Part shown: positions 7,095 through 7,293 of the stretch, one piece after another | How the letters are laid out: the number at the start of each line of letters is the position of its first letter | How positions within the stretch are numbered: position 1 is the first letter of the stretch | DNA from: Mesorhizobium sp. AR10 | Lineage (GTDB): Bacteria; Pseudomonadota; Alphaproteobacteria; Rhizobiales; Rhizobiaceae | Direction of reading: 5' to 3' | Length of the DNA: 64,000 nt | Assembly: GCF_024746795.1 (NCBI RefSeq) | Contig: NZ_CP080524.1 | Location: forward strand, 1,798,001-1,862,000 | Made by a program: the position numbers and the translations under genes | The notes under the pieces: generated by a model | The model's database searches: none | What the model was told of the DNA's origin: nothing | Seen by the model: the letters and a program-made list of their open reading frames with translations, nothing else

Positions 7095-7151
7095 TACGTC
7101 TCTCTTACATTCCGCATCGATGCGGTCGTCGTCCGGCCGGTCGCGGACAAC

Positions 7152-7183
7152 AAAAAACCGGCAGTGCCTTCGCAAAGCCGGTT
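7152..7183 (-). terminator. Intrinsic terminator in the metX leader
   Basis: On the minus strand AACCGGC (7183-7177) pairs with GCCGGTT (7162-7156), followed by a run of Ts (7157-7152). The hairpin lies between the SAM-II aptamer and the metX ATG and so fits a transcription-attenuation design. Its 5' arm is complementary to a GCCGGT strand in the aptamer loop. Confidence 0.7.
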
Positions 7184-7194
7184 ACAGGATGCAA

Positions 7195-7252
7195 ACGGCC
7201 CTTTAGCAAGTTGTTTAACGTGGCTGCAAGCCGACCGGCCAAATCACCACGG
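7195..7252 (-). promoter_or_regulatory. SAM-II riboswitch (metA-type) upstream of metX
   Basis: The minus-strand leader carries the compact H-type pseudoknot of SAM-II. P1 is CGTGG (7251-7247) with CCACG (7223-7219). The loop contains TTTGGCCGGTCGGCTTGCAG. The conserved CGTTAAA and TGCTAAAGGG segments follow, with GGCC (7200-7197) able to pair with the loop GGCC to form the pseudoknot. SAM-II elements are known to lie upstream of metX/metA and related methionine genes in alphaproteobacteria, and to turn expression off when SAM binds. Position, order and conserved blocks all agree. Confidence 0.9.
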
Positions 7253-7264
7253 AAGTTGGTATCT

Positions 7265-7293
7265 CTTCTAGGGCGGACGCGTGCGGGCGTCAA
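7265..7293 (-). promoter_or_regulatory. Sigma-70-type promoter for metXW
   Basis: On the minus strand TTGACG (7293-7288) and TAGAAG (7270-7265) are separated by exactly 17 nt. Transcription would begin near 7258, just before the SAM-II aptamer, so the whole aptamer would be transcribed. Confidence 0.6.

Follow-up and report, generated by a model that had tools for sequence, protein, structure and literature searches.

The window, a stretch of 64,000 nucleotides of Mesorhizobium sp. AR10, carries on its minus strand an element that probably stops transcription of metXW when SAM is plentiful. Reading its sequence together with those of its relatives, we find it likely that this SAM-II riboswitch is an OFF switch that lowers metXW transcription at high SAM and uses a local hairpin (H2) as antiterminator. 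The relatives suggest that it is this hairpin, and not the long-range pairing (H1) put forward in an earlier note on the same DNA, that keeps the genes on at low SAM. As a SAM-II attenuator the element is well formed and belongs to a known kind, and the assignment of the antiterminator strand is the added prediction; the earlier note identified the parts correctly but was probably mistaken about the switch.

The mechanism that we propose is a competition for one strand. Without SAM, the pseudoknot 3' strand (7202-7196) would be free and would pair with the terminator 5' arm (7180-7174) once the arm leaves the RNA polymerase, the linker between the two closing the hairpin. The arm would thus be unavailable during passage of the polymerase over the T run, and transcription would read through into metX. 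SAM binding would instead lock the 3' strand in the P2 pseudoknot with the loop strand, leaving the arm free, and the terminator would form. The arm would work because it resembles the loop strand, both being partners of the same 3' strand.

The riboswitch, its terminator and the genes downstream

All the features described here lie on the minus strand unless otherwise stated. The SAM-II (SAM_alpha, RF00521) covariance model matches 7260-7183 over its whole length (model positions 1-79) with 78.3 bits (E 6.1e-16), against a gathering cut-off of 36 bits; this is the Rfam search that the earlier note had suggested as a check on its SAM-II core, and it bears the core out. The strands of the P1 stem and of the P2 pseudoknot are both present in the sequence: CGTGG (7251-7247) pairs with CCACG (7223-7219) in P1, and in P2 CGGTC (7237-7233), which lies in the loop of P1, pairs with 7200-7196, with one G-U pair. 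The conserved 3' core of the aptamer, GCTAAAGGGCCG (7207-7196), holds this P2 3' strand, GGCCG (7200-7196), and the copy would be expected to bind SAM. The SAM-II long loop family (RF01726) was also tried and rejected, the window scoring 25.2 bits, under its cut-off of 44.

The sigma-70 promoter claimed in the earlier note is in place as well. A -35 element, TTGACG (7293-7288), read in the sequence and recovered by a relaxed promoter scan, stands 17 bases from a -10 element, TAGAAG (7270-7265), which agrees with the consensus at four of six positions and was recovered by the same scan; transcription would start near 7258. A strict promoter scan found none. With the relaxed scan (spacing 16-18), a -35/-10 pair lies 5' of the SAM-II in 78 of 90 representatives of the loci compared below, versus 27 of 90 shuffled sequences, the other 32 of the 122 representatives being omitted as unplaceable or short; most pairs begin 40-48 bases ahead of TGATTT.

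Between the aptamer and metX sits a T-tailed hairpin, the terminator (7183-7156; AACCGGC-TT-TGC-GAAG-GCA-CT-GCCGGTT). Its 5' arm AACCGGC (7183-7177) is shared with the proposed antiterminator hairpin, its 3' arm GCCGGTT (7162-7156) is followed by a T run on to 7152, and TGC/GCA forms an inner pairing. The earlier note had named this hairpin and its T run, and rightly so: at -16.8 kcal/mol (z -3.5) it is more stable than any of 200 shuffles, although a first hairpin scan, with a loop limit of 8, did not pick it up. The attenuator with OFF logic described there is likewise supported by the sequence, and SAM would act through it to turn metXW down. Beyond the T run, at 7131-7148, lies a short inverted repeat, GTCCG...CGGAC, that recurs in many Mesorhizobium metX leaders.

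The genes downstream are methionine genes, as the earlier note had them: metX, encoding homoserine O-acyltransferase (7094-5925; NF001209, 553.1 bits, cut-off 331), and, after it, metW (5928-5314; TIGR02081, 294.2 bits, cut-off 189.5). Since the metX start codon, ATG at 7094-7092, is 58 bases past the T run, P2 does not cover the ribosome site. In the opposite orientation, from 7414, lie hisC and a prephenate dehydrogenase gene.

The riboswitch family is widespread among the relatives. Counting matches at E 0.001 or better, RF00521 is present in 61 of 61 genomes of the Mesorhizobium genus sample, in 189 of the 199 that make up the family sample (188 scoring above the cut-off), in 77 of 101 of the order sample (76 over the cut-off) and in 54 of 104 of the class sample (47 over the cut-off). 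Nine of the ten family genomes without it do not exceed 2.6 Mb, a hint that the element is lost as genomes shrink, and two genomes of 1.9 Mb (G072) and 1.5 Mb (G111) that keep a match are counter-cases. The genome of the window has a second SAM-II with a terminator, ahead of metZ (C2:243014-243091, within L002 1501-1620), whose P2 3' strand is GGACCG. In three loci of the genus (L035, L036 and L037, near 1501-1600) a metX-type leader with the same linker stem and terminator arm stands ahead of metA, identified by a family match in L035 and L036 and by its start in L037. It would seem that these loci retained the riboswitch cassette and swapped the acyltransferase gene, metA being unrelated to metX. 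By a first criterion, 24 of 269 SAM-II leaders have no T-tailed hairpin (for example L020, L024, L083, L241, L245 and L267), and these may control translation instead.

Two candidate partners for the terminator arm

Both candidate antiterminators occupy the terminator 5' arm, and P2 excludes both. H1, the pairing of the earlier note, joins the loop strand GGCCGGT (7240-7234) to its complement ACCGGCT (7182-7176). The exact complementarity that the note had pointed out, between GCCGGT (7239-7234) and ACCGGC (7182-7177), is there, with G7240-T7176 as a seventh pair, and its core CCGG is palindromic. H2, the local hairpin proposed in the follow-up analysis (7202-7174), pairs AGGGCCG (7202-7196), the pseudoknot 3' strand, with CGGCTTT (7180-7174) in a lower stem and TTGCA (7194-7190) with TGTAA (7186-7182) in an upper stem, under a TCC cap (7189-7187). 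It is the fold of lowest energy for 7207-7172 (-12.3 kcal/mol, a stability reached by 10 of 200 shuffles), is conserved in metX leaders, and excludes the terminator, with which it has bases 7183-7177 and 7174 in common, as well as the SAM-bound P2, with which it has 7200-7196 in common. As free duplexes, the 7 bp of H1 reach -11.6 kcal/mol versus -7.8 for the lower stem of H2. Against unrelated terminator arms, drawn from the window and 19 named loci with distant lineages not each represented, neither stands out when the window is taken by itself: the window loop is matched as well or better by 20 of 190, so the H1 complement is not rare, and 19 of 190 fit the P2 3' strand equally well. ACCGG is present in 13 of 15 SAM-II terminator arms versus 8 of 190 other arms.

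Comparison across loci goes some way towards telling the two pairings apart. The aptamer finder parsed 269 of 282 fetched loci (13 were dropped), of which 237 have, within reach, a T-tailed hairpin at least as stable as -8 kcal/mol and 32, without one, were omitted from the tests. Clustering at 85% identity gave 122 representatives, and terminator arms were permuted among loci, yielding counts that are not true probabilities because related loci share changes, in tests blurred by hairpin calls that must be in error at some of the divergent loci. Over the 122 representatives, H1 scores 15.05 versus 14.91 when permuted (467 of 2000 permutations as high) and H2 14.91 versus 14.17 (0 of 2000). By this sequence comparison, the match of the P2 3' strand to the arm is locus-specific and that of the loop is not; the loop-arm pairing that the earlier note took for the switch is possible in the window, but it is not the conserved one. 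The signal comes from the 83 representatives outside the family (H1 938, H2 0 of 2000 permutations); for the 39 inside it, neither pairing is significant (564 and 557 of 2000), "family" meaning here loci up to L105, from L233, and L142 and L154, with a few neighbouring-family records such as L071 and L095 among them.

H1 looks good in the window because the loop strand of its group holds the palindrome CCGG: CCGG being its own complement, an arm that copies such a loop strand also complements the loop. In this palindromic group, to which the window belongs (79 representatives with a P2 3' strand G(G/A)CCG), H1 reaches 16.6 versus a background of 12.8 and H2 14.8 versus 11.5, with H1 stronger in 43 and H2 in 24, and contiguous-match scoring cannot separate them there. 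In the 40 representatives with GGT(C/T), H1 is at background (12.1 versus 12.0) while H2 is well above it (14.9 versus 10.8), and H2 is stronger in 30, H1 in 9; three of the 122 fall outside both groups. Among these 40, 27 form a non-palindromic set whose loop strand is CGACC or CGATC, and here an arm that copies the loop strand pairs with the pseudoknot 3' strand and not with the loop. The copy (GACC or GATC) is found in 13 of these 27 arms versus 27 of 188 in the background (Fisher p 1.5e-4), and the loop complement GGTC in 0 of 27 versus 12 of 188. Eight of the 27 have CCGG, with which the loop could form 4 bp.

A reduced set with a single locus for each family of the class sample (30 usable out of 40, 5000 permutations) ranks H1 higher, with 71 of 5000 permutations for H1 and 499 of 5000 for H2. 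The levels, however, run the other way, H1 lying under background (11.23 versus 11.89) and H2 well over it (14.87 versus 10.97). Permutation should say little about H2 in this set because most leaders share GGTCG, and the H1 signal would be that of a few palindromic loops carrying palindromic arms. When arms were replaced by GC-matched unrelated ones, the native arm folded with its leader at least as well as all but 5% of the replacements in 34 of the 70 loci from outside the family and in 6 of the 36 from inside it, the share for the window being 0.07. Linker shuffles revealed little general constraint, the median share being 0.29 in both groups and 0.06 in the window.

The linker is conserved in the metX leaders of close relatives. 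We examined 115 loci, 72 from the genus and 43 retrieved with a DNA pattern that fixes GGGCCG and leaves the linker free, and a protein match places metX downstream in 76 of them, a selection made by protein and not by hairpin. The string GGGCCG-UUUGC-cap-GUAA-CCGGCUU is kept in 76 of these 76 leaders. This is the fair count, because the 38 distinct leaders used for column-by-column comparison were chosen by a pattern in which the letters of the stem and some of those in both arms are already set. In these rows none of the 8 columns of the UUGC/GUAA stem varies, whereas all 5 of the cap do; in the terminator, 1 of 12 columns varies in the 5' arm and 3 of 12 in the 3' arm. At the top of the H2 stem the pair is AU in 26, GC in 9, GU in 1, UG in 1 and unpaired in 1, so that one pair only covaries, through perhaps two or three events. 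H1 is present in all 38, two of them with one pair fewer, and is uninformative because no H1 pair varies; the terminator has one pair with one-sided changes, and RNAalifold on the 38 leaders returns the terminator and not the H2 hairpin.

Predicted timing of the proposed switch and alternative explanations

Folding was computed with programs without pseudoknots, H1 and P2 being scored as free duplexes or imposed as constraints. The switch would need timing, because the whole terminator stem wins in both states. When the growing window RNA is exposed to 7160, H2 pairs stand at 0.89 and the terminator at 0.01 in the free RNA, while holding P2 brings the terminator to 0.57; with exposure to 7158 the terminator stands at 0.47 free and 0.80 held, and with exposure to 7156 at 0.89 and 0.92. 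SAM could thus matter, in this model, only while the last terminator stem bases emerge. Given the polymerase's usual footprint, these bases should emerge as it crosses the T run. With three stem bases missing, the window terminator goes from 0.01 free to 0.98 held. With four missing, holding P2 raises the mean over 39 family loci from 0.22 to 0.79 and that over 81 loci outside from 0.23 to 0.69, and swapped terminators gain less than the loci's own (0.44 versus 0.57 in the family, 0.29 versus 0.46 outside). The own terminator switches better than the swapped one in 24 of 39 family loci and 50 of 81 outside with four bases missing; with two, the figures are 21 of 39 and 48 of 81. For the metZ copy in the genome of the window the modelled response is weak (0.61 free, 0.82 held).

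Could the loop strand (7240-7234) hold the arm (7182-7176) as a pseudoknot without SAM, and be removed by P2 upon SAM binding? It makes the stronger free duplex, outscores H2 more often than the reverse in the palindromic group, ranks ahead in the one-per-family permutation and is found in all 38 distinct leaders. We nonetheless think it unlikely, as H1 has no locus-specific signal over the 122 representatives, falls to background with GGT(C/T) and loses its GGTC complement altogether in the 27 non-palindromic arms. It also leaves the conserved linker stem unexplained, and it has to form through the P1 loop, which carries a cost.

Alternatively, there could be no dedicated antiterminator, the terminator being a fixed bottleneck, as reported for S. 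meliloti metA, and the aptamer acting mainly on RNA stability or translation. The accessible text of Scheuer 2022 (PMC9373788) reports no predictable SAM-II-driven antiterminator for that metA and a strong terminator in both media, and in our folds the complete stem is favoured whether P2 is free or held. The same text, however, predicts that S. meliloti metZ terminates on SAM and describes a 100-nt RNA whose level rises in rich medium. The conservation of linker and arm seen in 76 of 76 metX leaders would be superfluous for a fixed terminator, and the distance of 58 bases keeps P2 off the ribosome site. We rate this explanation as somewhat less probable still than a switch through the loop strand. 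A chance Rfam match beside an unrelated terminator has a negligible probability, given the score of 78.3 bits, the occurrence in every genome of the genus sample and nearly all of the family sample, and the met genes downstream in the loci checked. The local hairpin H2 thus remains our preferred antiterminator.

Known SAM-II systems and a possible copy rule

A SAM-II followed by a terminator is, as far as the accessible literature goes, an already published arrangement. The available text of Corbino 2005 (PMC1273637) describes the P2 pseudoknot of the family, promoter elements a few bases ahead of P1 and putative terminators in many members, and suggests an OFF switch. For SAM-II, a small pseudoknot that has attracted much study, a transcriptional mechanism was not established in the literature as of 2007, in the parts accessible, and effects of SAM-II on gene expression are said in Scheuer 2022 (PMC9373788) to have been unstudied before 2022. 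As described in the accessible parts of these two papers, Agrobacterium tumefaciens metA (PMC1273637) and S. meliloti metZ (PMC9373788) resemble our element in the aptamer with P1 and P2, the promoter near P1, the terminator between P2 and the methionine gene and the OFF logic proposed. Ours differs in its operon, metX-metW of Mesorhizobium, and in that the antiterminator is spelled out and tested on relatives; the prediction for S. meliloti metZ (figure S1 of PMC9373788) may show the same pairing as H2. In Leyn 2014 (PMC4239095), SAM_alpha also stands ahead of metXW, there in five Bradyrhizobiaceae genomes and thus in another genus, and the accessible text does not describe an antiterminator for it.

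The compact translational SAM-II (metX; PDB 2QWY, according to the review PMC10907184) belongs to the same aptamer class. In the part of that 2024 review available, SAM-II is treated as direct occlusion of the ribosome site, which P2 hides, whereas the P2 3' strand of the window is linked instead to a terminator. The tandem SAM-II/SAM-V of Pelagibacter (PMC11508383), as far as its accessible text describes it, also has a hairpin before a U run after the SAM-II, a linker that competes with SAM binding by the SAM-II; there, however, the linker blocks the SAM-II response altogether and a second aptamer follows. A literature search that covered few subscription journals, with sources accessible in part, returned no statement of the SAM-II antiterminator strand and no copy rule.

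Such a rule can be proposed, tentatively and as a possibility that we ourselves rate as rather doubtful. In SAM-II attenuators in general, the terminator 5' arm would copy the pseudoknot loop strand, both competing for a single 3' strand; where the loop strand holds the CCGG palindrome, in Rhizobiaceae and neighbouring groups, it could also hold the arm, so that P2 would pair the two captors with each other and free the arm from both at once. For the window, H2 would explain how the loop-arm complement can exist without being the switch. The SAM-II class is common in Alphaproteobacteria, and to name the strand through which the aptamer would signal to the terminator is to make a precise prediction, open to mutation.
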